Shown here one piece after another: positions 21,253-48,677 of a DNA stretch of 64,000 bases (the stretch's first letter is position 1; every line of letters starts with the position of its first letter). Both the position numbers and the translations under genes were made by a program. The notes beneath the pieces are model-generated. The model had not been told where the DNA came from and searched no databases. It saw only the letters and a list, made by a program, of their open reading frames with translations. This DNA is from Haloarcula halobia (lineage in GTDB: Archaea; Halobacteriota; Halobacteria; Halobacteriales; Haloarculaceae). Location: positions 434,001 through 498,000 of the forward strand of contig NZ_CP119787.1 of NCBI RefSeq assembly GCF_029338255.1. Reading direction: 5' to 3'.

Positions 21253-21327
21253 GGGCACGTAGCTCAGTCCGGATAGAGCGTCGGACTTCTAATCCGACGG
21301 TCGTGGGTTCGAATCCCATCGTGCCCG
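21253..21327 (+). tRNA. tRNA-Arg (anticodon TCT)
   Basis: Acceptor arms GGGCACG/CGTGCCC pair fully; the D-arm GCTCAG...GAGC, the anticodon stem TCGGA/TCCGA with loop CTTCTAA (anticodon TCT at loop positions 3-5) and the T-arm GTGGG-TTCGAAT-CCCAT are all present. Discriminator base G at 21327. No intron; CCA is not encoded. Confidence 0.95.
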
Positions 21328-29720: not shown

Positions 29721-29792
29721 GTCCGGGTTGGGGTAGTGGTATCCTTCAGCCTTGTGGTGGCTGAGACGTGGGTTCAATTCCCGCACCCGGAC
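29721..29792 (+). tRNA. tRNA-His (anticodon GTG)
   Basis: The G-1 base typical of tRNA-His is genome-encoded (29721), then TCCGGGT/ACCCGGA acceptor pairing and C73 at 29792. Anticodon stem CAGCC/GGCTG with loop TTGTGGT gives GTG. T-arm GTGGG-TTCAATT-CCCGC. The downstream sequence is AT-rich and leads to an HNH endonuclease gene. Confidence 0.95.
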
Positions 29793-29898
29793 TATATAAA
29801 TTTTCTAACAATTCTTGGCCCGCTTCAGGCTTCGATTTCAGTTCCACTTTCACTCCGGATGGAACGGATTTAATTTCCTCCTGGAATGATTTGATTGT

Positions 29899-30741
29899 AT
29901 GTCGGACCACGAATGTCCGACCTGCGGGGCAACGTTCGATTCCCGGCGAGGGCTCGGAGTCCACCACAGCAAAGCGCACGGCGAGCGCCTTCCGAACCGA
30001 ACGTGCGACGAATGTGGTACGGCCTTCTATTGTGAGTATTCAAAGCGCTACTGTTCGGATGACTGCCGTGAGGTGGGCGTCTCTCAGACTGGTTCGGACA
30101 ACCCGAACTTCCGTGGCGGAAAGCAAGAGACCGACTGCGACATCTGTGGCGCGTCGTTCGACTACTACCCCTCGGAGAAGGAGGGACTGTACTGTCCGGA
30201 GTGCGTCGAGACCGCGGCATGGCGTGACCAACCCGAACAGTCGGGGTCGGACCATCACTCGTGGCAGGGCGGCACGCTGACACTCTCGTGTGATGTCTGT
30301 GACGCTCGAGTCGAGCGATATCCGAGTCAGGTGACGGGCGAAGTCACCCTCTGTAGCCGCGAGTGCCACGCCGAGTGGCTCTCGGACGCGTTCACGGGCG
30401 ACGGCCATCCCAACTGGCGCGGCGGGGACGTCGGCGACTACGGGCCGGGTTGGCGCGAGGTCAGAGCGCGTGCGCTCGAACGGGACGACCACGCGTGTGT
30501 CCTCTGTGGGGCCGACGCCGACGACCTGGGCCGGAACCCCGACGTCCACCACGTCGTCCCCGTCAGACTCTTCGCCGAACTGCCGGTCCTTATGGTCCGG
30601 GACGCACACGCGCTCGAGAACGTCGTCACGCTGTGTCCGGGCTGTCACCGCCGGGCGGAGTTCGGCCACGTCTCGCGGGCCGAGCTGTGCTGGCGGGCTG
30701 GCATCGACGGCGGTCCGGCCGCCCGGGCCCGTGTTGGCTAG
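29899..30741 (+). CDS. HNH endonuclease with multiple zinc fingers
   Basis: A 280-residue protein: C2H2 finger (CPTCGATFDSRRGLGVHHSK, residues 6-25), then three Cys-knuckle units (CDEC, CDIC, CDVC), each ending in a short repeat NPNFRGG, HHSWQGG or HPNWRGG that resembles DNA-binding NUMOD-type elements. The HNH nuclease (about 200-265) has CVLCGA, DVHHVVPVRLF and TLCPGCHRR. It is promoted from GGATTTAATTTCC. Homing-type or mobile-element nuclease is likely; the natural target is unknown. Confidence 0.85.
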   Translation: MSDHECPTCGATFDSRRGLGVHHSKAHGERLPNRTCDECGTAFYCEYSKRYCSDDCREVGVSQTGSDNPNFRGGKQETDCDICGASFDYYPSEKEGLYCPECVETAAWRDQPEQSGSDHHSWQGGTLTLSCDVCDARVERYPSQVTGEVTLCSRECHAEWLSDAFTGDGHPNWRGGDVGDYGPGWREVRARALERDDHACVLCGADADDLGRNPDVHHVVPVRLFAELPVLMVRDAHALENVVTLCPGCHRRAEFGHVSRAELCWRAGIDGGPAARARVG

Positions 30742-30745
30742 ACGG

Positions 30746-31030
30746 TCAGGGTTCGGGGCGCATCGTCTGTGACTCGGACCCGCTCAGCGCGCCGTACTCG
30801 TTGCTGGATTTGATGATCGAGAGCGCGGTCATGATGTCCGAGCGGGTCAGCAGGCCCAGGAACTCGCCGTCCTCGTCGGTGACCAGCAGGCGGCCAACAG
30901 TGAGGATCTCGGTGGTCATGACGTCGCTGACGGTGTGAACGTCCCGCTCGACCCTCCGGACGGCGCGGACGTCCTGGAGCGCGACCTGGGCCACGATGTC
31001 GATGCCTCGTTCGACGGGATGGTCGGTGTT
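30746..31030 (-). pseudogene. Degraded duplicate of the M50 protease 3' end (CBS part)
   Basis: An 82-codon open frame (30746-30994) almost identical at its C-terminus to the CBS tail of the protease gene at 41867 (both end ...GALxGSESQTMRPEP). An in-frame 54-bp piece, flanked in the intact gene by CGACGG repeats (42016 and 42070), is missing and removes 18 residues. Similarity falls off toward 31030. It has only a stump of one CBS domain, so it is best read as a remnant. Confidence 0.87.
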
Positions 31031-31259
31031 ACACTCTTGTCGCTTCTATAGTGCTATTCGATAGTGTATAACGAATATACGACGTTCAAAATCTAAAAAC
31101 AATTCTATATATCCGAAAAGTTTGCCTACATCTTATTATATGAGTGTGAAAACGAACTATTGCCCTCCTTTTCGAATATTTCGGACCCGTATCTGCTATC
31201 TTGACACTCGATACTGCCGGTTTATCGACTTTCAGCGGAGGGCGTCTGGACCAGCCGGG
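31031..31259. other. AT-rich left boundary of the putative island
   Basis: About 230 bp of markedly AT-rich sequence with no convincing gene between the M50 remnant and the first island gene. It contains TATAGTGCTATTCGATAGTGTATAACG, which has internal dyad-like repeats. The composition contrasts with the GC-rich neighbours, suggesting foreign or decayed DNA. Confidence 0.5.
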
Positions 31260-32009
31260 TTACGCGCCACCGACCCACTCGACCAGTCTCGTCCAGAACG
31301 GTTGGTAGTGGTCCCACTCGAGGAACGCGGGCGACCCCCAGTGGGGCGCGCAGTCGGTGGTGAACGCCGCAGAGCGCCCGTCGCCGTGCTCGCCGACGAC
31401 CAGCAGCGGGTCGTCCTCGAAGGAGACGATCTCCGTCGCGTCGTCGTCTGCCGTGACCCGGTTGTACCCGAGCATAGCCGGCCACTCCTCGGGCGTTCCA
31501 TCGACAATGGGGTGGTCCTCGGTGCGAGTCGGCACGGCCCCGTCCGACCGCTCGACGCGGTCGTCGCACGGTTCCAGCGACACCGGGAGCGCCCGTTCGA
31601 CCGGTGAACCGCGGTATCCGGCCTTGCCGTTGAACCCCTGAAACGAGAGGTACCCCCCGATCATCAGGAGGCCACCGCCGGCCGTCACGTAGTCGTCTAA
31701 CAGCTGCAGACGGTTCGGTTGCTGTTCGTACTCCGTGAAAGTCGACGGCGGTATCGCGAGCGTGTTGTAGCCGATGTCGCTCAGCACGACGACGTCGTAC
31801 TCGGTCATCTCCGCGGCGGTGGACGGGAACTCCGTCGCCGCGACGTGACATGGCTGATAGGTCGTGTCGACGCCGCCGTCTTCGAGTGCCTCCTCCAGTG
31901 GGTCGACGGCCTCGTGATACGACGACCGGGAGTAGAAATCGAACCCTTTCATATCGAAGCTAATCGACTGCCAGGACTCTCCGACCAGTAGTGCGCTAGT
32001 CTGACTCAC
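31260..32009 (-). CDS. Glutamine amidotransferase-like (DUF1355-type) protein
   Basis: A 249-residue alpha/beta protein of the class I GATase/ThuA-like fold. MSQTSALLVGESWQ is followed by a Rossmann-like core, YDVVVLSDIGYNTL, GGGLLMIGGYLSFQGFNG and FTTDCAPHWG. The last may be an active-site loop with Cys and His. Catalysis is unproven. It is the leftmost island gene, on the same strand as the OFA transporter. ATG 32009 is preceded by an AT-rich box. Confidence 0.78.
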   Translation of the reverse strand: MSQTSALLVGESWQSISFDMKGFDFYSRSSYHEAVDPLEEALEDGGVDTTYQPCHVAATEFPSTAAEMTEYDVVVLSDIGYNTLAIPPSTFTEYEQQPNRLQLLDDYVTAGGGLLMIGGYLSFQGFNGKAGYRGSPVERALPVSLEPCDDRVERSDGAVPTRTEDHPIVDGTPEEWPAMLGYNRVTADDDATEIVSFEDDPLLVVGEHGDGRSAAFTTDCAPHWGSPAFLEWDHYQPFWTRLVEWVGGA

Positions 32010-32110
32010 GGTACTACCTCCATCACGTACCAGTATTATACTTTCGGCGGTTCAGCGACGTCCGCGTGGCCCGGTTCGCGTCGCCCCGAGGGCGACCGGG
32101 GGTCGGCGAA

Positions 32111-33376
32111 CTAGTTCGTCTCGGCTTCGTCGGCCAGTGACGGAGGACGGAGCACCAGTGACCCCAGCCCGCCACCGATGGCGAGGAGGCCGCCGACGGC
32201 GAACGCGAACTGCCAGCCCGTCACGGAGACGAGCCAGCCGACGGCCGCACCGCCGAACAGTCCGCCCCACACCTTCCCCGAGTAGACGAGCGCGTAGTTG
32301 CCCGACGAGTGGACCTCGCCGTAGTAATCGCCCACCAGACTCGGAAAAAGCGTGTACTGCGGGCTCCAGAAGAACGTTGCTACCACGACGGCCGCGACGA
32401 ACCCGACACCGTTGCCGGTCCGGGCGAACCAGACGACGGCGAGCAGTCCGAGTCCACAGCACAGGAACGAGGCAAACATCGCACGCTCGCGATGCACCCG
32501 ATCGGAGAGGTCGCCGAGCGTGAGCCGTCCAACGCCGCCGGCGAGGGGCAGCAGTGTCGCCGACAGCGTCGCCGTCGTCGCTGGCAGGTCGAGCGACTCG
32601 GCGAAGGCGATGACCTGTGCCGTCAACATCAGCCCCGCGCCGCTGACTGCCACGAAGATGACGTACATGAGCCAGAACTGCCAGGTCCTGACCATCGCGC
32701 GCCAGTCGACTCCACCGCTCACGCTCCGGGACGTCCCGCCGTCCGTCTGCATCCCGTCGCCGGAGTCTGACGCGGACATCGACGGATCCCGCAGGACGAA
32801 CGCGGCGACGAGGATGACGACGCCGATGAGAACGCCCATGTTCCGGAGTGTCGATGGAACCGCCGTCAGGGACGCGTTCGCTCTGACGTACGGGACGAAC
32901 ATGACGCTCCCGCCGGCGAAGGCCATCGTGCCTGCGCCGGTCGTCAGTCCCCGCCTGTCCGGGAACCACTTGACTGCGGTGTTGACCGCGACCGTGTAGA
33001 CGATACCGACGCCGATCGCGCCGGTGAAGTAGAGGACGTAGACGTGCCACGCGGCGCTGGCATACGAGAGACCGACGTACGACCCGCCGGCCAGGACCGC
33101 CGCTATCGCTGTCAGTCCACGGGGCCCGTGTCTGTCGCGCCACAGGCCCACCGGGAACTGGGTCCCCGCCTGCCCGAGCACGAACAGGGAGAAGGCGAGC
33201 CCCAGCGCCTGCTCCCGGACGCCGATATGTGCAGCGAGTGGGCCCTGTAGCGACGACCAGACGTACTGGTACGGACTGACGACGGCCATCGTGAGGACGG
33301 CGGCGACGAGGAGCCACCAGCGGGAGAAGGTCAGCTGCTCCCTCAGTTGCTGGACGCTCTCGCGTTGCTCTCCCAT
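32111..33376 (-). CDS. MFS transporter, oxalate/formate antiporter (OFA) family
   Basis: A 421-residue carrier with twelve helices. The YQYVWSSLQGPLA region in TM1-2, the loop GLWRDRHGPRGL and the conserved KWFPDRRGLTTGAGTMAFAG block are typical of OFA carriers of small carboxylates. A central cytoplasmic loop is rich in Asp/Ser. The substrate probably belongs to the island's pathway, as import of a carboxylate or export of a product (inference). Confidence 0.88.
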   Translation of the reverse strand: MGEQRESVQQLREQLTFSRWWLLVAAVLTMAVVSPYQYVWSSLQGPLAAHIGVREQALGLAFSLFVLGQAGTQFPVGLWRDRHGPRGLTAIAAVLAGGSYVGLSYASAAWHVYVLYFTGAIGVGIVYTVAVNTAVKWFPDRRGLTTGAGTMAFAGGSVMFVPYVRANASLTAVPSTLRNMGVLIGVVILVAAFVLRDPSMSASDSGDGMQTDGGTSRSVSGGVDWRAMVRTWQFWLMYVIFVAVSGAGLMLTAQVIAFAESLDLPATTATLSATLLPLAGGVGRLTLGDLSDRVHRERAMFASFLCCGLGLLAVVWFARTGNGVGFVAAVVVATFFWSPQYTLFPSLVGDYYGEVHSSGNYALVYSGKVWGGLFGGAAVGWLVSVTGWQFAFAVGGLLAIGGGLGSLVLRPPSLADEAETN

Positions 33377-33378
33377 GG

Positions 33379-33633
33379 TCAGTCGTCGCCCCTCTCGTGA
33401 ACGCTGCCGGTCCCTGCGGCACCGGGAGGCCGCCGGTGGGGCCTCGGTCCCAGGCGATGCCGTCTCACCCTCCCACCACGACGGGGACAGCGGGGCGACG
33501 TGTCGAATGGCGCGGGCCGCTTCCGGTTCGTCGTCTGTCGCGTCCCGTCGGTTCGAGGGCGGTCGCCTGTCGGGGCCAGCGGGCTGTCAGTCTGTCCGGT
33601 CGGTTCCTGTGAGGCGTTGGCAGTGTCGTTCAT
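33379..33633 (-). CDS. Possible small protein between ECF ATPase and OFA gene
   Basis: An 84-codon frame whose ATG overlaps the ABC gene's stop (TGATG), as if translationally coupled, and which ends two bases before the OFA start. The sequence is low in hydrophobic residues and rich in Arg/Pro/Thr, with no recognised domain. It may be only a by-product of open frames in GC-rich DNA, so the call is tentative. Confidence 0.3.
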   Translation of the reverse strand: MNDTANASQEPTGQTDSPLAPTGDRPRTDGTRQTTNRKRPAPFDTSPRCPRRGGRVRRHRLGPRPHRRPPGAAGTGSVHERGDD

Positions 33634-35345
33634 CACTTGACGTACTCGAACAGTTCGTCCACGGTGAGCACTGTCTCGGAGAGGCCGAGCTCCGACGCCA
33701 GGCGCGTGACGAAGGGTACTTTCACGTCTGTCCGTGCGAGCTGTTCCTCCTGACCGAAGACCGTTCGGACCGGCCCATCGAGCAGCAGGTCTCCCTGATT
33801 CAGGGCGAGAATCCGGTCGCCGTGGTCCCGGGCGAACTCGACGTCGTGGGTGATGACGACGACGAGCTTCCCCTCGTCGACCAGCATCTCGACCACGTCT
33901 CCGAGGAGGTCGATGCCGAGCACGTCCTGACTCCCGGTCGGTTCGTCGAGGGCGACGATTGGCGTGTCCATCGCGAGGACGGACGCGACGGCGATGTGCT
34001 TGCGCCGTGCGAGCCCGACGTCGTAGGGGTTCTTCTTCCGGATGTCGGTCAGGTCCATCTTCTGGATCGCGTCGTCGACCAGTTCGTCGATCCGGTCGCT
34101 GTCGTAGCCGAGGTTCTTCGGCCCGTATCTGACCTCCGCCTCGATGGAGTTGTGAAACAGCTGGTTGTTCGGGTTCTGGAAGGCGAGGGCCACCTCGCCG
34201 GCGAGTTCAGAGATGTTGTGGTCGGCAGTGTCCAACCCGTTGACCGTCGTCTTCCCCTCGCTCGGTTCGAGGAGCCCGTTGAGATGCTTCAGGAACGTCG
34301 ACTTCCCGGCGCCGTTCTGCCCGATGACGCAGACACACCCCGCGTCGAGGTCCAGGTCTATGCCACGAAGCGCGTGCACCTCCTCGTCGTAGTAGAAGTG
34401 CACGTCGTCGAACTGGATTCCTGCAGACCCCATATCGACGCTCGTCCCGGCGCCATCGGATTGCAGGTCGGGCGCCAGAGGCGGCTGTCCGTCGTCGATG
34501 TGGGGCGACAGCTCGGCGACGACTTCTTCGAGCGTCAGGGGCAGCGGCTCGTCGTTCGGAACCTTCCCGAGTTCCCGGAGTCGTTCCCCGATAACCGCGG
34601 TCGCCGGCACCTCGAATCCCCACTCGCTCTCGGCGTTCCGGAACACGGTGCGTGGCTCGTCGTTCTCGGCGATCTGTCCCTCCTCGACCACGAGGAGGCG
34701 GTCGAGGTGGGGCGCGAGGTGTGCCAGGTCGTGGCTGATCGTGACGACTGTGTACCCCTCTGCAGCGAGGTCCGCGATCACCTGCATCACCTCTTCGGTC
34801 CCGTGGGGGTCGAGCTGGGATGTCGGTTCGTCAAGCACCAGCACGTCCGGTTCCATGGCGAGCATCGACGCGAGCGCGAGGCGCTGTGACTGCCCTCCGG
34901 ACAGCTGCTGGGGGTTCCGGTCGTAGAGATGGGAGATTCCAGTGAGCTCGAGTTTCTCCTTCGAGATTTCGATGAGCTCCTCCCGGGGAACGCCCATGTT
35001 CTCCAGTCCGAACGCGACCTCTTCGAAGACGGTCGTGCTCGCACCGGTAAGCTGGTCGAACGGGTTCTCGAACAGGAGCCCGACGGTGTCGGACATGTCC
35101 GCGATACTGGTCTCGGTCACGTCCTGGTCACCGACGACGGCGCTCCCCTCCAGCGTCCCCTCGAAGTAGTTCGGGATGTAGCTGGCCAACAGGCGACCCA
35201 GTGTCGACTTGCCGGCGTCACTCGGCCCGGTGACGCCGACGAACGCTCCTTCCTCGATGGACAGCGAGACGCCGTCCAGCGCGAACTCGTCGTCCGGCTG
35301 CACACGGTAGTTGAACCGGACGTCGGAGAGTTCGATCAGAGCCAT
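33633..35345 (-). CDS. ECF transporter ATPase, fused A-A' (CbiO-like)
   Basis: Energy-coupling ATPase of 570 residues, two ABC domains in one chain. The first has Walker A GPSDAGKST (Asp instead of the usual Gly), signature LSGGQSQR and Walker B VLVLDEPTSQLDP. The second has GQNGAGKST and VALDEPTGSQD; its signature is degenerate (DVGLARRKH), as is common in the second half of such fusions. It overlaps the next gene, the T component, by ten bases, so the two are one operon. Confidence 0.92.
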   Translation of the reverse strand: MALIELSDVRFNYRVQPDDEFALDGVSLSIEEGAFVGVTGPSDAGKSTLGRLLASYIPNYFEGTLEGSAVVGDQDVTETSIADMSDTVGLLFENPFDQLTGASTTVFEEVAFGLENMGVPREELIEISKEKLELTGISHLYDRNPQQLSGGQSQRLALASMLAMEPDVLVLDEPTSQLDPHGTEEVMQVIADLAAEGYTVVTISHDLAHLAPHLDRLLVVEEGQIAENDEPRTVFRNAESEWGFEVPATAVIGERLRELGKVPNDEPLPLTLEEVVAELSPHIDDGQPPLAPDLQSDGAGTSVDMGSAGIQFDDVHFYYDEEVHALRGIDLDLDAGCVCVIGQNGAGKSTFLKHLNGLLEPSEGKTTVNGLDTADHNISELAGEVALAFQNPNNQLFHNSIEAEVRYGPKNLGYDSDRIDELVDDAIQKMDLTDIRKKNPYDVGLARRKHIAVASVLAMDTPIVALDEPTGSQDVLGIDLLGDVVEMLVDEGKLVVVITHDVEFARDHGDRILALNQGDLLLDGPVRTVFGQEEQLARTDVKVPFVTRLASELGLSETVLTVDELFEYVK

Positions 35346-36184
35346 TGGACCACCCACCAGCCGACGGCAGCGACGACGGCGCCGCCACCGAGCCACCGGA
35401 GTACTCTGTCGACGGGCCTGTCGGGCACCTCGAAGAGATACGTTCGCGCGTTCGTCCGGGTGAACCCGCGTGAGTCGAGCGCGAGCGAACGCGTCTCGGT
35501 CGTTATCAGCATCCCGATGAGCAGCGGCGTCAGCAGATCGACGAACGCCCGGATACGTCGTCTGAAGCTGCCTTTCACGTTCAGTCCCCGCGCTTGCTGG
35601 GCGTCGATGATGTCGTACGCCTGCTCTCGCATGTCCGGGATGAACTGCAGGGCGGCCATGAACACGTAGGCGAGCTTGGGCGACAGTCCCTTCTGGATCA
35701 TCGCAATCGCGAGTTTCTTCGGGTGGGTCGTCATCACGGTGGCCAGCACACAGACCATCAGTACCAACAGGGGCGTAAGGATGGTGAGCGCGAACCTGAT
35801 CCCCTCTTCCCAGACGATTATGGTCTCGACGACGGGGAGGTTCTCGAACACCCACAACCGGGTCTCGTTGGCCGGATTGAACAGTCCGTGGAAGAACAGC
35901 AGCGAGAACGCGAGCGGTAGCGCGAGTCCACCGAGGATGCGCGCGACTCGACCGAAGATTCCGGCGAGGACCGTCGCCACGATGGCGCCGACGAAGAATA
36001 TCGACGGCACTCTGAACGAGGGCGCGAGCAGGGCGACCGTCACCATGCTGGCCGTTACTACTAGTTTCGTCACCGGATTCATACGGTGCAGGAAGCTGTT
36101 TCCCGGCTGGAAGTCGAAGAGCCCGCTGGTTCCAGGGGTCGCGTCCGCGAGGGCGTCGATGTCCATTTCAACGTCTGAAGTCAT
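35336..36184 (-). CDS. ECF transporter transmembrane component T (CbiQ-like)
   Basis: A 282-residue integral membrane protein of the EcfT family. An N-terminal FQPGNSFLHRMNPVTKL segment is followed by five or so helices and the coupling-helix motifs QQARGLNVKGS and LDSRGFTRTNAR that contact the two ATPase domains. It would join the A-A' ATPase and the S component. ATG 36184. Substrate is set by the S subunit, not by this gene. Confidence 0.92.
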   Translation of the reverse strand: MTSDVEMDIDALADATPGTSGLFDFQPGNSFLHRMNPVTKLVVTASMVTVALLAPSFRVPSIFFVGAIVATVLAGIFGRVARILGGLALPLAFSLLFFHGLFNPANETRLWVFENLPVVETIIVWEEGIRFALTILTPLLVLMVCVLATVMTTHPKKLAIAMIQKGLSPKLAYVFMAALQFIPDMREQAYDIIDAQQARGLNVKGSFRRRIRAFVDLLTPLLIGMLITTETRSLALDSRGFTRTNARTYLFEVPDRPVDRVLRWLGGGAVVAAVGWWVVQWL

Positions 36185-36272
36185 TCTCTCTTGTTCTCAA
36201 TAAGCGCCGATGGGACGGCAGATAATGATTGTTGGGGGAAGTGACAGCCGGTTGTCTAACCCGACTTCGTGA

Positions 36273-36899
36273 CTACTCGTTCAGCACTTGTTGCCCGAAA
36301 GACGGGAGGTAGCGTTCGGGGATCTGCCGCGCGACCCCGTACGCCACGCCCAGACTGATCAACTTGTCCGTGATGTCGATGGTGAACTGGGTTGCGAACA
36401 CCGCTTCGACGATGCTCGACCCGGTGGCCATCAGCGCCCCGACGGCGGCGTCTTGCCCGGCACCACTGAACCCACCGAGGACGATGACCTGGATCGGCGT
36501 CGCGGTCAGCGTGGACACGATAGCGAGGATCACGCCCGCCAGGAACAGGCGCGCGTAGTCTCTCGTGTCAGAGACGTCCATGAACCAGCCACTCGTCGCC
36601 ATCCATCCAGCGACCAGTGCGATTGCTATCTGGACGACCGCGAAGAACGCCGTGCTCGGCGACGTCGTGACACCCAGTATGAGGTTCGTCGAAGCGCCGG
36701 CGACGACCGCCACCCACGGCCCGGCGATGATCGCCAGGAGGATCGTCCCGATGACGTCGAGGAACAGCGGGAGACGCAGTACGCGGGTGAACGTCCCACC
36801 GATGACGTTGAGCCCGATCGCGACCGGAATCAGCACGAACGCCCGGGTCGAGAAGTCGAGCGCGACGCCGCGCCAGAACGAGACACCGGTCTCTGCCAT
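36273..36899 (-). CDS. ECF transporter substrate-binding component S
   Basis: A 208-residue protein with about six membrane helices. The first helices carry NVIGGTFTRVLRLPLFLDVIG, then GPWVAVVAGASTNLILG, typical of ECF S components. A small substrate would be bound directly in the membrane. The substrate cannot be read off the sequence; the neighbouring catabolic genes suggest a small organic compound rather than a vitamin (inference). The 88-bp gap to the T gene is AT-rich. Confidence 0.82.
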   Translation of the reverse strand: MAETGVSFWRGVALDFSTRAFVLIPVAIGLNVIGGTFTRVLRLPLFLDVIGTILLAIIAGPWVAVVAGASTNLILGVTTSPSTAFFAVVQIAIALVAGWMATSGWFMDVSDTRDYARLFLAGVILAIVSTLTATPIQVIVLGGFSGAGQDAAVGALMATGSSIVEAVFATQFTIDITDKLISLGVAYGVARQIPERYLPSFGQQVLNE

Positions 36900-37172
36900 T
36901 ATTCGTCTCCTCCTGTTCGGACTGAACTGTTCGCCTGCTGCTCTCTTTGTGCTAGACTGTCGTGTGTCATCTTACCACAAACGTGGCCACAGAGACAACT
37001 ATATTAAATCTGTCGGAAGAATACTCATTTAACCATCATTTCTCCCGGTGAATTATACCCTTCTTGTCGTGAGTCCCCGGGGAATCAGTCGACGTCTTCC
37101 GGAGTGTTCGACGGTAGCCCCGTCGTCCGGTGCCGATAGACTAAAGACGGTGCTGTGAGACGTCCACGACGA
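36900..37172. promoter_or_regulatory. Divergent promoter region, ECF S gene / GGT gene
   Basis: A 273-bp AT-rich gap between the minus-strand transporter operon and the plus-strand GGT gene. It has TATATTAAATC near 37000 and GAATTATACCC near 37050, which fit TATA boxes on either strand. The short palindrome CCCCGGGG occurs near 37080. No copy of the GTTCTA-N5-TAGAAC element was found. Confidence 0.45.
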
Positions 37173-38795
37173 ATGACTGGGACAGGAGATATCGACATCT
37201 ACGGCTCGCGCCGCTCGACGGTGTACGCACGCGAGGGAGTCGTCGCGACGAGCCAACCGCTCGCTGCGGAGGCGGGCGTGCAGGCACTCCGCGACGGGGG
37301 CAACGCCTTCGACGCCGCCGTCACCACCGCGGCGGTGTTGAACGTCGTCGAACCCTTCAGCACGGGCATCGGCGGTGATGTGTTCGCGCTCTACCGGACC
37401 GCCGACGACGAGGTCGGGGCGCTCCGGGCCATCGGCGGGGGTCCAACAGACGCCTCCCTCGACGCGCTCCGCGAGGCCGTCGAGGCCGACGACACGGAAG
37501 GTACACCGGAACTACCGGAGCGCGGACCCCTCACTGTCACGCCGCCGGGCGCGGCGCGTGGCTGGGAGCGGACTGTCGAAGACCTGGGGGTGCGGAGTTT
37601 CGCAACCGCGCTCGAACCAGCCATCCGATACGCCCGAGAGGGGTTCCCAGTCACGGAGGTCATCGCGAACCAGTGGGCCGACTGGAGTGATGCGCTCCGG
37701 AACGACCACGCGACGGAGACGTTCCTGCCGGGCGGCGAGGCCCCCGACCCCGGCGATGTGGTCCGGTTCCCGGCACTGGCCGACACGTTCGAACAGGTCG
37801 TGGACGGCGGTGCAGACGCCCTCTACGAGGGCCCCATCGGCGAGCGAATCGTCGAGACAGTCCGCTCCCGCGGCGGGTTCCTCTCGACCGACGACCTCGC
37901 GGCCGTCGAGGCCGAGTACGTCGACCCAGTTTCGACGACGTACGGGGACGCCGAGGTATACGAGCTTCCGGCACCGAACCAGGGCCCAATCGCTCTGGAG
38001 GCGCTGAACGTCGCGAACGAGGTCGATGCGGGGTCCTTCCCGGACGGGTCCGTCGAGGGCACGCACCGCTACGTCGAGGCGTTCAAGCGCGCGTTCCACG
38101 ACGGCCATCAGTACGTCACGGACCCGCGTTACGAGTCGCTCCCACCGCTGACCCAGAGAGAGTGGGCGGCCGAACGCGCCGCGACTATCACGGACGTGGC
38201 GTCGGACGACGTGTCCCCGCGAGTGCCCGGTAACGACCGCGCCGAGGACGCCGACACGGTCTTGCTCACCGTCGCCGACGACGAGGGCAACGTCGTCTCG
38301 TTCATCAACTCTATCTTCACCGCCTTCGGCAGCGGCCTCGCCGCGGCGGGGACGGGCGTCGTCCTGCAGAGCAGGGGGGCGTCGTTCTCTCTCGACCCGG
38401 ACCATCCCAACCAGTTCGAACCGGGGAAACTGCCGTTCCACACGCTCGTCCCGGCCGTGGCAAAGTTCGGCCCCGACGACTGGGCCGCCTTCGGTGTCAT
38501 GGGTGGTTACATGCAGCCACAGGGCCATCTGCAGGTGCTCGCAGCGCTCCTCGACCACGACGCGTCGTTACAGGATGCGCTCGACCGCCCGCGGTGGCGG
38601 TATCGGTCTGACGGCCGCCTCGCTGTCGAGGCCCGCCTCGACGACCGCCTGACGACCAAACTCGCTCGCCGGGGCCACGAACTCGCTGTCGAACCGCCGG
38701 ACGAGTTCGGCGGCGGCCAGATCGTTCGCAATCACAACGGCGTGCTCTCCGGCGCGACGGACCCCCGGAAAGACGGTACCGTCGCCGGATTCTGA
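37173..38795 (+). CDS. Gamma-glutamyltransferase-like Ntn hydrolase
   Basis: A 540-residue protein of the GGT/cephalosporin-acylase family, made as a precursor that cleaves itself. The new N-terminal nucleophile is Thr362 in DADTVLLTVADDEGN. Upstream are DGGNAFDAAVTTAAVLNVVEP and GIGGDVFALY; downstream FGSGLAAAGTG and GGYMQPQGH, the latter typical of a non-classical branch. No signal peptide is visible, so the enzyme is probably intracellular. It may cleave gamma-glutamyl or other amide bonds of an imported compound. Confidence 0.87.
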   Translation: MTGTGDIDIYGSRRSTVYAREGVVATSQPLAAEAGVQALRDGGNAFDAAVTTAAVLNVVEPFSTGIGGDVFALYRTADDEVGALRAIGGGPTDASLDALREAVEADDTEGTPELPERGPLTVTPPGAARGWERTVEDLGVRSFATALEPAIRYAREGFPVTEVIANQWADWSDALRNDHATETFLPGGEAPDPGDVVRFPALADTFEQVVDGGADALYEGPIGERIVETVRSRGGFLSTDDLAAVEAEYVDPVSTTYGDAEVYELPAPNQGPIALEALNVANEVDAGSFPDGSVEGTHRYVEAFKRAFHDGHQYVTDPRYESLPPLTQREWAAERAATITDVASDDVSPRVPGNDRAEDADTVLLTVADDEGNVVSFINSIFTAFGSGLAAAGTGVVLQSRGASFSLDPDHPNQFEPGKLPFHTLVPAVAKFGPDDWAAFGVMGGYMQPQGHLQVLAALLDHDASLQDALDRPRWRYRSDGRLAVEARLDDRLTTKLARRGHELAVEPPDEFGGGQIVRNHNGVLSGATDPRKDGTVAGF

Positions 38796-38823
38796 CCGGG
38801 ACGACGGCCAGTCGACTCCTGTG

Positions 38824-39585
38824 TCAGCCGACCCACGTGTGCTTCTCTGTCGTGAACGACCGCTCCCCGGTCCACCCGGAGTCGAACCGGCTCTCGATCC
38901 GATTGCGGAGTGACACCACTCCCTCCGCGACCCGCTGTTTCCGTTCTGCTTCCCGGTCGTCCGGGAGCAACACGCCGACGCTCCCGTAACACACGCCGTC
39001 CTCGGTGACGATCGGGACGGCCACACTCTCGGTGAGGTTCTCTCCAGCGAGCGGTCCGACGGTGTACCCGTCTGCGTCGAGATCCGTCTTGATCTGGTCG
39101 ACGTCGTACGTGCTCGGTTCACCGTCCTCGTCTCGCTCCGCGCCATCTACGGCGTGAATTACGAGACCGACGAGCGAATCGTAGAACGGGAGGCTACTCC
39201 CTACCTCCACCGCAACCTGTTCCGGAACGCGATGGGCCTCTACGATCGTACAGCTTCTGTTCGCCTGCTCGAAGAGTGCGATGCCGACGTCCAGATGTCC
39301 CGCGAACTCTCTGCAGACCTCGGTTGCATACCGGTAGAGCGGCGAGTTCGAACGCGCCTCGAACCCGACGTCCAACAGTTTCGGGCTGAGCTGGTATCGA
39401 CCGTCGATCTTTCGGACGTATCCCTCCTCTCGGAGGGTACTCAGATGGTTGTGGACGATGCCTTTGCTCATCTCCAGTTCGGACGCGAGTTCGGAAACCC
39501 CGGCCTGTCCCACGCCGCTCAGGTGTTCTACTAACGCAAACGTTCGGGCGCTCGTTTCCACCCGGCGATTCGCTTCGTAGTCCAT
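38824..39585 (-). CDS. IclR-family transcriptional regulator
   Basis: A 253-residue regulator. Residues 8-65 are the N-terminal winged helix (RTFALVEHLS, GVSELASELEMSKGIVHNHL); about 80-240 form the ligand-binding GAF-like IclR domain (VGSSLPFYDSLVG, ESVAVPIVTEDGVCYGSVGV). Ligands of such regulators are often small carboxylates. It is convergent with the GGT gene; a palindrome GTTCTACAGAATAGAAC lies upstream of its start. Likely local controller of the island. Confidence 0.9.
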   Translation of the reverse strand: MDYEANRRVETSARTFALVEHLSGVGQAGVSELASELEMSKGIVHNHLSTLREEGYVRKIDGRYQLSPKLLDVGFEARSNSPLYRYATEVCREFAGHLDVGIALFEQANRSCTIVEAHRVPEQVAVEVGSSLPFYDSLVGLVIHAVDGAERDEDGEPSTYDVDQIKTDLDADGYTVGPLAGENLTESVAVPIVTEDGVCYGSVGVLLPDDREAERKQRVAEGVVSLRNRIESRFDSGWTGERSFTTEKHTWVG

Positions 39586-39608
39586 ACCGCCACATCACTA
39601 TCCGCAGG

Positions 39609-39657
39609 TATAAATACTGGCCGTCGACTCGACCGAAAGCGTTCTACAGAATAGAAC
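39609..39657 (-). promoter_or_regulatory. IclR promoter with candidate operator palindrome
   Basis: TATA-like GTATAAATACT (about 39608-39618) lies near 30 bp upstream of the regulator. The perfect palindrome GTTCTA-N5-TAGAAC occupies 39641-39657. A related half-symmetric GTTTGC-N5-TAGAAC occurs at 39784-39800, sharing AGAATAGAAC. Together they look like autoregulatory sites for the IclR protein. Confidence 0.55.
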
Positions 39658-39815
39658 TTCGACCCGTGTCCGAACTCACAGCGACCGAGTCACTCGGATT
39701 TTGGCGATTTTTTATTATTGTTGATGATTGAAAAAACTGGAACTCTCTACGCAAGGTGTGTGAAGTTGTGACAAGGGCCGGACGTTTGCAAGAATAGAAC
39801 GACGACCGTCCTCCC

Positions 39816-40712
39816 TCAGATGAGGCCGGCTTCCTCGGATTTCGCGAGAATCTGTTTAGCGATGTGGTACATCTCGCGGTCGATGACGTTCCCGTCGATC
39901 GCAGCGAGCGTGTTCGACCCCGTCTGTTCGTATTCCCGGACGATTCGCTGTGCGCGCCGGGCCTTCTCGACGTCCGGCGTGAACACGTCGTTTGCCGTCT
40001 CGACCTGTTCGGGATTGATGACGACTTTGCCGTCGTACCCGAGCGCGCACTCGAACTGACACGTCTGAGAGAACTCCTCTGTGCTGTCCGGGTCCGTGTA
40101 CGGCCCACCGATGGCAATCAGTCCCGCACTCGCGGCGGCGTGTGAAATCTTCGACAGCGGGTAGTGCCAATAGTGGCCCGGATAGTTCTTCGATCCGTGT
40201 GTCGCGCCGATCGAAGCCGAGTAGTCCGCCGGGCCGAATACGAGTGCAGTGAGACGGTCGCTCGCGTGGGCGATGTCCGTCACGGCGTTCATCCCGTCTG
40301 CCGTCTCGATCTGTGCGTTGAGCCCTATCGACCCGATGTCGAGACCCGCCTTGGTCTCGACGCTCGTCAGGAGCGTCTCGACCGTCTGCACGTCGGCGAC
40401 GGTTCGGACTTTCGGAACGACGAGCGTGTCGATTTTCTCCCCGACGGCGGTCACGACGTCGATGACGTCGTCGTACCACCACCGTGTGTCTGTCCCGTTG
40501 ATTCTGTAACTGAGGACCAGGTCCTCCCAGTCCCGTTCTTGAACGGTCTTGATGAGTTCCCCACGGGCCGGTTCTTTCTCTCCGGGGGCGAGCGAATCTT
40601 CGAGATCGAGCACGATCTCGTCGGTATCGCTGCTCATCGCCTCGACGACGAGCTGTCGTTCGTTCCCGGGAATCCCCAGCTGTGAACGGCGCAGCGTCGT
40701 GTTAGTTAACAT
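39816..40712 (-). CDS. CitE-like / HpcH-HpaI family aldolase-lyase
   Basis: A 298-residue TIM-barrel protein of the citrate lyase beta / malyl-CoA lyase family. Metal- and CoA-binding residues appear in VLDLEDSLAPGEK, VPKVRTVADV, IETADGMNAV and GPADYSASIG. Haloarchaea also use such enzymes in acetate assimilation; here the island context suggests a catabolic lyase that splits a hydroxyacyl-CoA. It contains LTNTTLRRSQLGIPGNE at the N-terminus. ATG 40712 follows the TATA box ATTTATACG. Confidence 0.87.
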   Translation of the reverse strand: MLTNTTLRRSQLGIPGNERQLVVEAMSSDTDEIVLDLEDSLAPGEKEPARGELIKTVQERDWEDLVLSYRINGTDTRWWYDDVIDVVTAVGEKIDTLVVPKVRTVADVQTVETLLTSVETKAGLDIGSIGLNAQIETADGMNAVTDIAHASDRLTALVFGPADYSASIGATHGSKNYPGHYWHYPLSKISHAAASAGLIAIGGPYTDPDSTEEFSQTCQFECALGYDGKVVINPEQVETANDVFTPDVEKARRAQRIVREYEQTGSNTLAAIDGNVIDREMYHIAKQILAKSEEAGLI

Positions 40713-41866
40713 AGTCCAACAACACCTGCGGGTCGTATAAATATGGCGGCAAACGCCTCCGACCGGGGAACGTCTCGATGGGTAGACAGGTTCCGGCAGG
40801 CACGCGACTGTTCGAACGCGGCTGACCCGACGAGTCGCCCCGTAGACCGCCGTGTTTCACCATCCCTGGACGCGAGGAATAGACCATCCCGCGACGGACG
40901 ACTCGCCGGCCGCGTGGATCCTCGTACCGACGGACGGCCGACGCTGTCCCAGCAGGACCGGCGGACTGGTACAGGGAGCGCCCCGGTGTAACGAATGTAC
41001 GCACGTTATGGGATGGTTCTGATACCGGGAGCGGCATCTCCGGTACACTGCCGTGAGTCTCGCTGTCGTGTTCTCTGCGTCGTGTGGAGCGACACCGGTC
41101 TTGGGCCGCTCAGATTCCATCGGTGATATTCCTCATCCGACAGACAATTCGATAGGAGCTATCTGCGAGTTAATCCACCGGATGGATACCGAAAATCGAA
41201 TTCTGATTTTCAATATCTTCAAAAAGGCTCGAAATTCTCCTCTCTCATCTATAAAAATCATGGATTAACTATACCTTGCAATATTTAGATTTCGAAACAG
41301 ACTTACCATATCTGTATGGGTGAAATACCTTCGAATATGGTGGCGAACACCACACGCTTCCCCGACCGCCGGTCGATCCTCACTGCCGACCCGACCTCTC
41401 GTCTCCCACTCTGAGGGGGGCCGTGTCTGCTTCGAACGACGTACCAGCCCGGTTTTCCCGCCCTTCCGGGTCCCCAGTTTGGCGGCCGGTTCGGTCCGGT
41501 GTTTCGACGAGCGCGGTGTCGTCCGCGCTACCCGCCTGGACCACGGCGACGACCATCCTGTCCGTGGTCCGGGCTTCCAACCCGACGGCCGTGTCAGTCG
41601 CGCATCCTGGCTTGACGACGTCGGCGACCTCGTCGAGTCTGTCGTCGACCCCGAGCGAGACCGCGCACGTCGAACACTCCGGGTCGTCGAAGTGCCAGTC
41701 GGTTATCGTACCACTGTGTGGTTCGCCGTCACGGTAGTGTCCGCTGATGGGTCACGGTAGTGTCCGCCGATGGAGGAGACCCACGCACATGCTCGCGCGG
41801 AACGACAGAAAATGTGCCGCGACGTATCGAGGCGACGGTACTTGCAGGAGCCATTCCTCTGCAGGT
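40713..41866. other. Large gap with no clear gene, right margin of island
   Basis: About 1150 bp between the CitE gene and the M50 protease. 40740-41100 is GC-rich with no convincing frame. 41120-41340 is distinctly AT-rich. 41380-41773 holds a possible decayed minus-strand frame and a 23-bp tandem repeat (described separately). The M50 stop is at 41867. Confidence 0.5.
41380..41773 (-). pseudogene. Possible decayed minus-strand gene and 23-bp tandem repeat
   Basis: A minus-strand frame open from 41751 to a stop at 41380 has a plausible Cys-containing segment (DWHFDDPECSTCAVSLG) but no suitable start. Just upstream lie two copies of a 23-bp unit, GTCACGGTAGTGTCCGCYGATGG (41728-41750 and 41751-41773), whose length would shift the frame. 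One reading is that the duplication inactivated a small gene; the other is that this is only an open frame by chance. Confidence 0.35.
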
Positions 41867-43060
41867 TTAGGGCTCGGGGCGCATCGTCTGTGACTCGGAC
41901 CCGCCCAGCGCGCCGTACTCGTTGCTGGATTTGATGATCGAGAGCGCGGTCATGATGTCCGAGCGGGTCAGCAGACCCAGGAACTCGCCGTCCTCGTCGG
42001 TGACCAGCAGGCGGCCGACGGAGTTCGACTGGAGTTCGGTCAGCGCGTCCATCACGGGGAGGTCGGGCGCGACGGTGAGTATCTCGGTGGTCATCACGTC
42101 GCCGACGGTGTAGGCGTCCCGTTCGACCTCGCGGACGGCGCGGGCGTCTTCAAGCGCGACCAGTCCGACGACCTCGCCGTTTTTCTCGACGGGGTAGCCG
42201 GTGTGGCGCTCCTCGAACATCGTCCGGATGAGCTCGTGGATGGACATCCCGGGACTGACCGAGGTGACGTGGTCGGCGGGAGTCATCACGTCCTGGACGG
42301 TGACCCCCTCGAAGGCCGCGCGCATCGAGGTCTGTCGGGCCTCGCCGGCCGCCCCGATGTAGATGAAAAAGGCCAGGCCGGCCAGGAAGATGTTCCCGGC
42401 GACGAACAGGCCAAAGAGGCCCAGGAAGATGGCGAAGATCTTCCCGACTTCGGCGGCGATCTTCGTCGCCTGGGCGTAGGGGCGCCGACGGGCCAGCAGG
42501 GCCCGGAGGACGCGCCCGCCGTCCATCGGGAAGCCCGGGAGCATGTTGAACGCGGCCAGCGCGACGTTCATCAGCGCGAGGTACGCGAGGACGAAGCGCA
42601 ACGCCTCGAGGACGACCGACTGGGTCCCGGGGATGACGACGAACGCCACGTACGACAGGGCCCCCAGCACGACGCTGACGATGGGCCCCGCGATGGCGAT
42701 GGCCAGCTCCTGTTTCCAGTCCTCGGGCATCTCGGTGAGCTGGGCGATGCCGCCAAAGAGCCAGAGCGTGATGGAGTCGATCGGGTAGCCGAATCGAATC
42801 GCGACCAGCGAGTGGCCCAGCTCGTGGAGGACGACGCCGGCGAACAGGCCGACGGCGGCGGTGATGCCGAGCACCCACACGAGGTTACCACTCGCCAGCA
42901 TCGCCGGGTCGAGCCCGGCCGCGAGCATCTCGTTCAGGAACCCGGTCGTCTGCTCGACTTGCGTCCCGATGATCCAGGCGAACAGGGGCAACACCAGCAG
43001 GAAGGTGAGGTCGAGCTGGATGGGTATCCCGAACGCGCTCCCGATGCGGAACCGGCGCAT
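41867..43060 (-). CDS. Site-2 protease (M50) with two CBS domains
   Basis: Intramembrane zinc protease of 397 residues. HELGH at residues 79-83 and the second zinc motif NMLPGFPMDGGR (172-183) are intact, within six or so helices. Two C-terminal CBS domains (about 255-310 and 320-380) probably bind an adenosyl ligand and set activity. Such enzymes release membrane-bound regulators. Its 3' end is the parent of the remnant at 30746. ATG 43060. Confidence 0.93.
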   Translation of the reverse strand: MRRFRIGSAFGIPIQLDLTFLLVLPLFAWIIGTQVEQTTGFLNEMLAAGLDPAMLASGNLVWVLGITAAVGLFAGVVLHELGHSLVAIRFGYPIDSITLWLFGGIAQLTEMPEDWKQELAIAIAGPIVSVVLGALSYVAFVVIPGTQSVVLEALRFVLAYLALMNVALAAFNMLPGFPMDGGRVLRALLARRRPYAQATKIAAEVGKIFAIFLGLFGLFVAGNIFLAGLAFFIYIGAAGEARQTSMRAAFEGVTVQDVMTPADHVTSVSPGMSIHELIRTMFEERHTGYPVEKNGEVVGLVALEDARAVREVERDAYTVGDVMTTEILTVAPDLPVMDALTELQSNSVGRLLVTDEDGEFLGLLTRSDIMTALSIIKSSNEYGALGGSESQTMRPEP

Positions 43061-48604: not shown

Positions 48605-48675
48605 GGGACCGTGGGTTAGTGGTATACTCCGGGCCTTGGGTGCCCGTGACCCCGGTTCGAATCCGGGCGGTCCCA
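48605..48675 (+). tRNA. tRNA-Pro (anticodon TGG)
   Basis: Acceptor GGGACCG/CGGTCCC, anticodon stem CGGGC/GCCCG with loop CTTGGGT (anticodon TGG), T-arm CCCGG-TTCGAAT-CCGGG, discriminator A at 48675. No intron or encoded CCA. The dispersed repeat element begins two bases after it. Confidence 0.95.
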
Positions 48676-48677
48676 CT

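Follow-up and report, generated by a model that had tools for sequence, protein, structure and literature searches.

A putative free-standing HNH homing endonuclease tied to tRNA-His genes in haloarchaea

Most of the known free-standing homing endonucleases come from phages. The nearest working model for the gene analysed here is SegB of phages T4 and T6, the likeness being that of an intron-less homing endonuclease located beside tRNA genes. PMC13096335 describes SegB homologs as widely associated with tRNAs, with cut peaks within tRNA genes, and PMC2988022 describes inheritance of SegB at high frequency among T4 x T2 progeny and tabulates its target as tRNA intergenic. SegB, however, is a GIY-YIG enzyme of phages with multi-tRNA arrays, whereas the type of protein described here, represented by P0001, combines an HNH domain with zinc fingers and resides in archaeal chromosomes, at one cellular tRNA per clade. 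The other pertinent precedent is provided by SegF and MobE, where the endonuclease gene adjoins the targeted gene, as proposed for P0001. In systems of the SegF/MobE type, the allele of the neighbouring gene is co-inherited and resistance comes about through allele differences. The neighbour of P0001, by contrast, is a tRNA gene, and the hosts are DNA-exchanging cells rather than co-infecting phages. For phage endonucleases of this type, the cleavage and insertion sites are reported to lie apart (PMC2988022).

Among haloarchaea, inteins with homing endonucleases (in polB and MCM) are presented as a case of homing-driven gene flow. Inteins reside inside protein genes and splice, whereas the P0001 cassette has no splicing element. 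PMC6471742 catalogues HNH families of Halobacteria, transfers included, and considers that uncharacterised families likely include homing endonucleases; the word tRNA is absent from its text. In the titles and the beginnings of abstracts of the open-licence PMC literature searched, no description of an archaeal tRNA-bound free-standing HNH endonuclease was found. phrog_1271 and other viral HNH endonucleases resemble P0001 in the HNH core and in some of the Cys-rich repeats but differ in that they are not generally bound to tRNAs: in a control set, a tRNA was found within 400 bp of 3 of 80 viral HNH genes. A single-sequence search yielded no close viral relatives of P0001, and an alignment-based search retrieved distant viral relatives from IMG/VR, the longer matches being mostly near 25-35% identity.

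The predicted endonuclease and its gene

The window, that is, the whole stretch of 64,000 nucleotides analysed here (Haloarcula halobia, NZ_CP119787.1, positions 434,001 to 498,000), contains a tRNA-His(GTG) gene at 29721-29793 of the forward strand (called by ARAGORN, 53.2 bits with Rfam), which belongs to allele A in our allele table for the genus and is the proposed target and co-transferred allele. It is separated by an AT-rich leader (29794-29898, +) from an HNH endonuclease ORF of 280 amino acids (P0001; 29899-30741, +), which starts 105 bp downstream of the tRNA in the window sequence. From the sequence and from comparisons of occupied with empty sites, the cassette appears to begin at about the tRNA 3' end. 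The leader harbors a TATA-like TTTAAT element (29869-29874, +), 24 bases before the ATG, and a TTTA-containing element about 25-35 bp before the start codon (elements read by eye, start codons chosen by script) is found in all 16 same-strand copies of the genus, which suggests that the gene has its own promoter and a leaderless message. The ORF thus has its own start codon and TATA-like element, the preceding tRNA is uninterrupted, and the location is neither that of an intron nor that of an intein.

The protein, delineated by the ORF call, family searches and conservation, begins with a C2H2 finger (residues 6-27; 29914-29979, +; C6-C9-H22-H27), identified from sequence and conservation and also by weak zf-C2H2 matches below the Pfam cut-off. 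The finger is followed by three units, delimited by the same two kinds of evidence, each of which consists of a Cys4 knuckle closed by a GxxxPNxRGG-like stretch: unit 1 (residues 34-74; 29998-30120, +) with C36xxC39, C52xxxC56 and GSDNPNFRGG, unit 2 (residues 78-125; 30130-30273, +) with C80xxC83, C99xxC102 and the degenerate GSDHHSWQGG, and unit 3 (residues 130-176; 30286-30426, +) with C131xxC134, C152xxxC156 and GDGHPNWRGG. The C-terminal HNH catalytic core (residues 183-256; 30445-30666, +), recognized through phrog_1271, Pfam and conservation, contains C200xxC203, H217H218, N241 and C246xxC249H250. The cysteines and histidines of the finger, the Cys4 units and the HNH core, along with N241, are invariant in all 15 aligned sequences, that of the window included. 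The best-matching family is the phrog_1271 HNH endonuclease (E=1.2e-35, residues 72-260); the Pfam HNH score of P0001, 20.9 bits, falls 0.5 bit short of the cut-off of 21.4, and the same model scores above the cut-off in 6 of 6 scanned relatives. By these features, P0001 is a member of the HNH endonuclease superfamily with an intact predicted catalytic core. The domain layout and the position just downstream of tRNA-His that a sequence-only reading of this DNA had proposed are confirmed from the 280-aa ORF; its description of the units as NUMOD-like amounts to no more than a resemblance, and none of the NUMOD models in Pfam matches P0001 up to E=1.

The closest named relative, from Halomicroarcula sp. 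SYNS111, shows 94% protein identity, and in 19 pairs of copies dN/dS amounts to 0.03-0.25, which indicates that the copies stay functional while present. An AlphaFold model of P0001 had a mean pLDDT of 58.8, below usable quality, and a Foldseek search with this low-confidence model gave McrA, Cap5 and IscB (best E 8.8e-3), nothing firm.

Distribution, related clades and the cassette

Matches to P0001 at E<=1e-20 are present in 74 of the 146 genomes of the family. A His-type copy or relic lies at tRNA-His in 66 of these (66 of the 146); only relatives of other types were found in the remaining eight (G034, G035, G047, G092, G096, G103, G116 and G143). All 66 are on the 3' side of tRNA-His, 65 of them within 0.6 kb and one, a fragment in G126, 1.5 kb off; 58 are on the same strand and 8 are inverted, and complete same-strand copies are mostly separated from the tRNA by some 60-170 bp. 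Class-wide, at least 162 of 391 genomes yielded matches at E<=1e-30. Outside the family, we examined 20 of the 28 high-scoring (>290 bits) loci among the matches listed, together with 20 lower-scoring loci. Each of the 20 high-scoring loci, all from other families of the order, lies 3' of tRNA-His, 14 in the same orientation and 6 inverted, so that, with 66 of 146 genomes within the family and 20 of 20 sampled loci in other families, the neighbourhood to which the sequence-only reading had drawn attention is indeed meaningful. Of the 20 lower-scoring extra-family loci among the matches listed, 18 are upstream of tRNA-Gln, three of these placements resting on the re-reading of misparsed introns; another is at tRNA-Glu(CTC), and the last, L226, has no tRNA beside it. 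In a phylum-wide sample, a match at E<=1e-25 was found in 43 of 392 genomes, every one in the order of the window or nearer. At one locus (L149, in G091), a single tRNA-His is accompanied by two His-type HNH copies or pieces in tandem, both inverted (G091:C1:2482853 and 2483885).

A protein tree of 110 rows was built, leaving out identical proteins and eight loci with ORFs shorter than 180 aa (L007, L022, L023, L136, L142, L145, L150 and L151). The His-type proteins form one group (60 rows, SH-aLRT 90; 49 same-strand, 11 inverted) and the Gln-type proteins a second one (32 rows, SH-aLRT 94), which in this tree is the sister of the His-type clade. All 32 Gln-clade rows are 5' of tRNA-Gln(UUG), with a gap of 23-176 bp. 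A third group (SH-aLRT 96) comprises two copies at tRNA-Glu(CTC) and L226; the latter, sister of one of these copies (L225), has no tRNA nearby. Besides, three HNH proteins with an HTH and an above-cut-off NUMOD3, a motif of homing endonucleases, are encoded upstream of tRNA-Glu(TTC) (L135, L138 and L139). A further locus, L137, with weak placement in the tree next to the Gln/Glu group, has a tRNA array at a distance of 521 bp. Taken together, address, side and orientation change 13 times on the tree, compared with 54.8 times in shuffles. The variation of orientation on the tree implies either at least two insertions at one place or inversion in place. As a control, the surroundings of the 11 other HNH genes in these genomes were inspected, and none of the 11 has a tRNA closer than 700 bp (for one of them, L140, just 194 bp of DNA was available on one side). 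Copies beside other tRNAs, which the earlier reading had proposed to look for, thus were found at tRNA-Gln and tRNA-Glu.

The tRNA-Gln(TTG) gene contains an intron at all examined Gln-type loci except L026, L136 and L224, the HNH gene of L136 being broken; according to PMC7714728, tRNA-Gln(TTG) of Haloferax volcanii has a 31-nt intron. The ARAGORN calls 'tRNA-Stop', 'tRNA-Glu i' and 'tRNA-Lys i' at L124, L126, L210, L213 and L221 were re-read by eye as misparsed intron-bearing tRNA-Gln. A 'Stop' call at L135 was similarly re-read as tRNA-Glu(TTC) with an intron: this gene (1900-2009, +) has an anticodon-loop intron of about 35 nt and stands beside the NUMOD3-HNH gene. In its relatives L138 and L139, tRNA-Glu is intronless.

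Among the 30 genomes of the genus with a match for the tRNA-His site, 16 have same-strand copies, 3 inverted relatives, 2 relics (G007 and G027, both in place at tRNA-His) and 9 an empty site; the same-strand copy in G019 is broken by an in-frame TGA. Where occupied and empty sites are comparable, they differ by a single cassette of about 0.9 kb that consists of the leader and the gene, as comparison with relatives lacking the gene, already suggested by the sequence-only reading, made apparent. In four of the nine empty sites (G015, G018, G020 and G029), homology to an occupied relative continues as far as roughly the 3' end of the tRNA, or a little past it, and resumes at about the HNH stop; for example, positions 72 and then 122 of G029 align with 72 and then 981 of G013, about 40 bp before the stop of the G013 gene. 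The other five give no clean comparison: about 1.1 kb of other DNA is present in G012, the best match of G009 is an inverted-type genome, and little DNA is shared downstream in G008, G022 and G025. A second genus, g15, shows the same insert of about 0.9 kb when G132 is compared with G120 and G123. In G116, which lacks the HNH gene, the cassette of G117 and G131 is replaced by about 2.9 kb of other DNA (reverse strand of L421, about 70-2960 past tRNA-His), in which a gene pair resembling, by eye, cytochrome bd oxidase genes was noticed.

Another 40 loci that lack a full copy were inspected, and in four of them (G059, G071, G088 and G119) a fragment of the HNH gene lies at tRNA-His; the one in G059 retains both gene ends, with about 0.66 kb of the inside missing compared with its near relative G058. 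On an rpoB'-region tree of the genus (4.1 kb, 30 genomes, with the allele known for 29; the genome of the window itself was left out and G000 is absent), presence shows 7 changes of state, and in g15 the respective tree gives 6 changes compared with 6.0 in shuffles over 17 genomes, and 4 over the 14 genomes with known tRNA. The comparison of genomes shows, then, a patchy cassette of about 0.9 kb behind one tRNA, with related predicted HNH endonucleases at other specific tRNA genes, and it also shows that the cassette, as judged from these relics and empty sites, decays and disappears in place. The condition that the sequence-only reading named for its own refutation, a fixed location with presence in all relatives, holds for the location but not for the presence.

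These observations bear on two readings other than homing. The gene could encode an ordinary accessory or defence nuclease that resides at a tRNA integration hot spot and is brought there by integrative elements; integration commonly takes place at tRNA 3' ends, the presence is patchy, and there are weak matches to restriction and defence HNH proteins, including ZorE, DpdF and McrA. However, each clade is found at one tRNA isotype and on one side of it, and the tRNA-Gln clade is on the 5' side, which is unusual for tRNA integrases. Moreover, the last 23 bases of tRNA-His occur once in the window even with up to 3 mismatches allowed, in agreement with the earlier failure to find an att-like repeat of the tRNA end, and the comparable inserts of about 0.9 kb comprise the leader and the HNH gene, leaving no space for an integrase. 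The PADLOC scores of P0001 are marginal, the best (E=5.3e-4, DpdF) covering the HNH stretch only, with no strong match to a defence protein. We regard this reading as improbable. Three short pairs of direct repeats around the HNH gene (17, 12 and 12 nt) look like chance occurrences.

The other reading is that of a host-domesticated gene that would encode, for instance, a regulatory protein or a repair factor co-expressed with tRNA-His and be inherited vertically and occasionally lost. The fixed place, the strong purifying selection and the distance of mostly about 60-170 bp between the tRNA and full same-strand copies would fit such a role, but the occurrence of both orientations at one site, the scattered presence with its 7 changes on the rpoB' tree of the genus, the decaying copies, the parallel clades at other tRNAs and the exchange of alleles against the tree described below all speak against it, so that domestication seems very improbable.

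On the 3' side of the cassette, the 'M50 remnant' noted in the sequence-only reading is an 82-aa CBS end at 30746-30994 (-), which by Pfam and repeat comparison is the duplicated 3' end of an M50-like gene and belongs to the flank, outside the cassette. An M50-like 3' end thus does adjoin the HNH gene, but it is a duplicate: 30748-30898 repeats 41869-42019 (151 bp, 97% identity), the 3' end of a complete M50-like ORF of 397 aa at 41867-43060, about 11 kb from the HNH gene (the M50 call was made by eye from the HELGH motif and the earlier reading). G017, with a 94%-identical enzyme, has a 397-aa M50-like ORF directly behind it, and the island of about 11 kb seen in the window is absent from the aligned stretch. 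With the M50-like ORF at full length in G017 and, beyond the island, in the window, disruption of this gene by the enzyme was rejected, and the idea that the enzyme had opened the locus to insertion likewise found no support. The island itself (30748-42019) separates the HNH gene from the complete M50-like ORF and has the direct repeat of 151 bp and 97% identity at its borders; the aligned stretches of G017, G010, G013 and G018 lack it. By eye, its genes include MFS and ABC/ECF-like transporters and gamma-glutamyltranspeptidase-like, IclR-like and HpcH-like proteins, and Pfam identifies a GATase1-like one; no integrase was recognized among its larger high-GC3 ORFs. A cut by the enzyme may have helped the island to enter.

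Linkage of tRNA-His alleles and endonuclease types

Two main alleles of tRNA-His, which differ at 7 of 73 positions, are found in the genus, with a further type in G012, and on the rpoB' tree the alleles change 10 times compared with 10.5 in shuffles. In Haloarcula, allele A (6 genomes) goes with A-type HNH and allele B (5 genomes) with B-type HNH, with no exception; the types are clades of the protein tree for 5 and 5 genomes, and the broken copy of G019 was assigned by DNA. The A and B groups show 57 fixed differences, all located between base 8 of the tRNA and HNH codon 146, within unit 3; the tRNA accounts for seven of them (bases 8 to 65), the leader and the coding sequence for the others. 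The stretch compared extends from 1 kb upstream to 1.9 kb downstream of the tRNA start, and within it the flanks and the HNH part are free of fixed differences. Among the 462 possible 6/5 splits of the 11 genomes, every other split gives at most 7 fixed differences. For the A-B pair L008/L018, dS is 2.2 in codons 1-155 and 0.30 in the remaining codons.

A comparable picture emerges in g15, where endonuclease-bearing and endonuclease-free genomes are interleaved on the rpoB' tree. One tRNA-His type is present in the six endonuclease-free genomes (G115, G116, G121, G129, G132 and G134, with one changed stem pair in G129) and in none of the 10 endonuclease-bearing ones; this count leaves out G128, G130 and G133, which have no tRNA-His match, and G119, which has a relic and a tRNA type of its own. 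Between G116 (without the endonuclease) and G117 or G131 (with it), the upstream DNA is 90-100% identical up to position -50, and the identity is 0.69 and 0.71 over the last 50 bp and 0.88 in the tRNA; the corresponding values for G117 versus G131 are 0.96 and 1.00. A similar drop to 0.58-0.60 in the last 50 bp before tRNA-His was observed between G059 and G058 or G061, which have identical tRNAs and flanks that otherwise are mostly 92-100% identical. Local replacement or a fast-changing promoter is suggested in that case, and it follows that the upstream 50 bp can change without a swap of the tRNA.

In two genera, therefore, comparison shows that the tRNA-His allele and the type or presence of the predicted endonuclease change together against the rpoB' tree, and co-transfer of the allele with the endonuclease is well supported by these alignments. 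The phylogenetically independent pairs agree in 4 of 4 cases in Haloarcula and 3 of 3 in g15, too few for p<0.05 in either genus alone. For occupancy versus allele across the whole genus, there are only 7 pairs, of which 3.2 go the same way, 0.2 the other way and 3.6 show no difference. The tRNA allele is, however, no simple mark of immunity, given that the inverted sisters L020 and L021 adjoin alleles B and A, respectively, and that the tRNA type of the endonuclease-free g15 genomes is that of the endonuclease-bearing G058 and G061 in g7.

Whether the allele takes part in recognition is less clear-cut. Homing could be real and the linkage of the tRNA mere hitch-hiking, with the target in the 3' flank and no role of the tRNA allele in recognition or protection; this is a variant of homing rather than an exclusive alternative to it. 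Adjacent divergent DNA stays linked without selection, so that physical linkage alone can join the tRNA and the N-terminal part, and with a divergence of 0.32-0.57 per base between the haplotypes in the leader and the N-terminus, recombination within the block is unlikely and linkage is to be expected. The inverted copies beside both alleles point the same way, as does a mixed outcome of partial Mantel comparisons, from which near-identical rows, ORFs shorter than 225 aa and L157 were left out. Over 58 rows, the catalytic domain itself tracks tRNA-His (0.21; 0.21-0.35 beside other parts), the whole N-terminal part versus the tRNA beyond the catalytic domain gives r 0.01, and unit 3 is the one N-terminal part that follows tRNA-His more closely than the catalytic domain accounts for (0.27, p about 0.005). 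For the 34 same-strand rows of the family, the values are 0.54 for unit 3 and 0.43 for the whole N-terminus; with all 47 same-strand rows included, the value for the whole N-terminus is 0.19, or 0.10 (p about 0.15) when the Haloarcula rows are removed. On the other side, the fixed differences start inside the 73-bp tRNA, with seven sites there, and the tRNA type of the endonuclease-free g15 genomes (6 of 6) is absent from the 10 endonuclease-bearing ones. On balance, we would give hitch-hiking slightly short of even odds.

The notion that tRNA-His is unusually variable was dropped because strong variation is also seen in other tRNAs of the genus, and a tRNA-Asn control taken from L137 was useless, being part of a tRNA array and matched in only 7 of 146 genomes. 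Elsewhere in the window, tRNA-Arg(TCT) (21253-21327) and tRNA-Pro(TGG) (48605-48676) have matches at E<=1e-15 in only 14 and 7, respectively, of the 32 genomes of the genus, the window's own included; in the rest of the genus, these two tRNA genes are thus either missing or strongly diverged.

Homing at tRNA-His and its implications

The features by which a homing endonuclease is recognized from sequence are present here, namely, an ORF of its own, occupied and empty alleles, spread that departs from the host tree, and decay in place. We therefore favour, with a probability of roughly three in four, the interpretation of this gene as that of a free-standing, intron-less HNH homing endonuclease that spreads by gene conversion at tRNA-His and carries its own tRNA-His allele, cleavage and target being predicted. 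Under this scheme, the array of the zinc finger and Cys4 units would bind the tRNA-His gene, or the junction of the tRNA and its flank, in a cassette-free cell, the HNH core would cut at the bound gene or junction, and repair of the break from the occupied chromosome would copy in the cassette along with the linked tRNA-His allele. The interrupted junction between tRNA and flank, and possibly also the differing tRNA allele, would protect the cassette from its own product. Since the tRNA-His gene is conserved and essential, such a target could not be deleted by any host. Mating, polyploidy and gene conversion in haloarchaea make homing feasible. Gene conversion in Haloferax is described in PMC11276520.

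Conceivably, homing at tRNA-His goes further and amounts to a 'home-and-rescue' gene drive, in which competing tRNA-His alleles are cut by the enzyme and the cassette supplies a functional, resistant allele that replaces that of the host, so that the tRNA allele and the DNA-reading domain would constitute a self/non-self haplotype swapped among species, with related drives on tRNA-Gln and tRNA-Glu. We consider this extension tentative and rather doubtful. If it is true, such drives could help to shape the tRNA sequences of haloarchaea and, possibly, anticodon-loop introns, as protection.

What distinguishes the present case is an order-wide set of such predicted enzymes in cellular archaeal chromosomes, with every main clade linked to a single tRNA isotype, and an allelic haplotype that unites the host tRNA gene with the presumed DNA-reading part of the enzyme. 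The tRNA-His gene tree of these archaea, accordingly, need not follow the host tree. The family offers a system for asking how a selfish endonuclease picks an undeletable target and protects itself, and whether selfish drive replaces essential tRNA genes between species.
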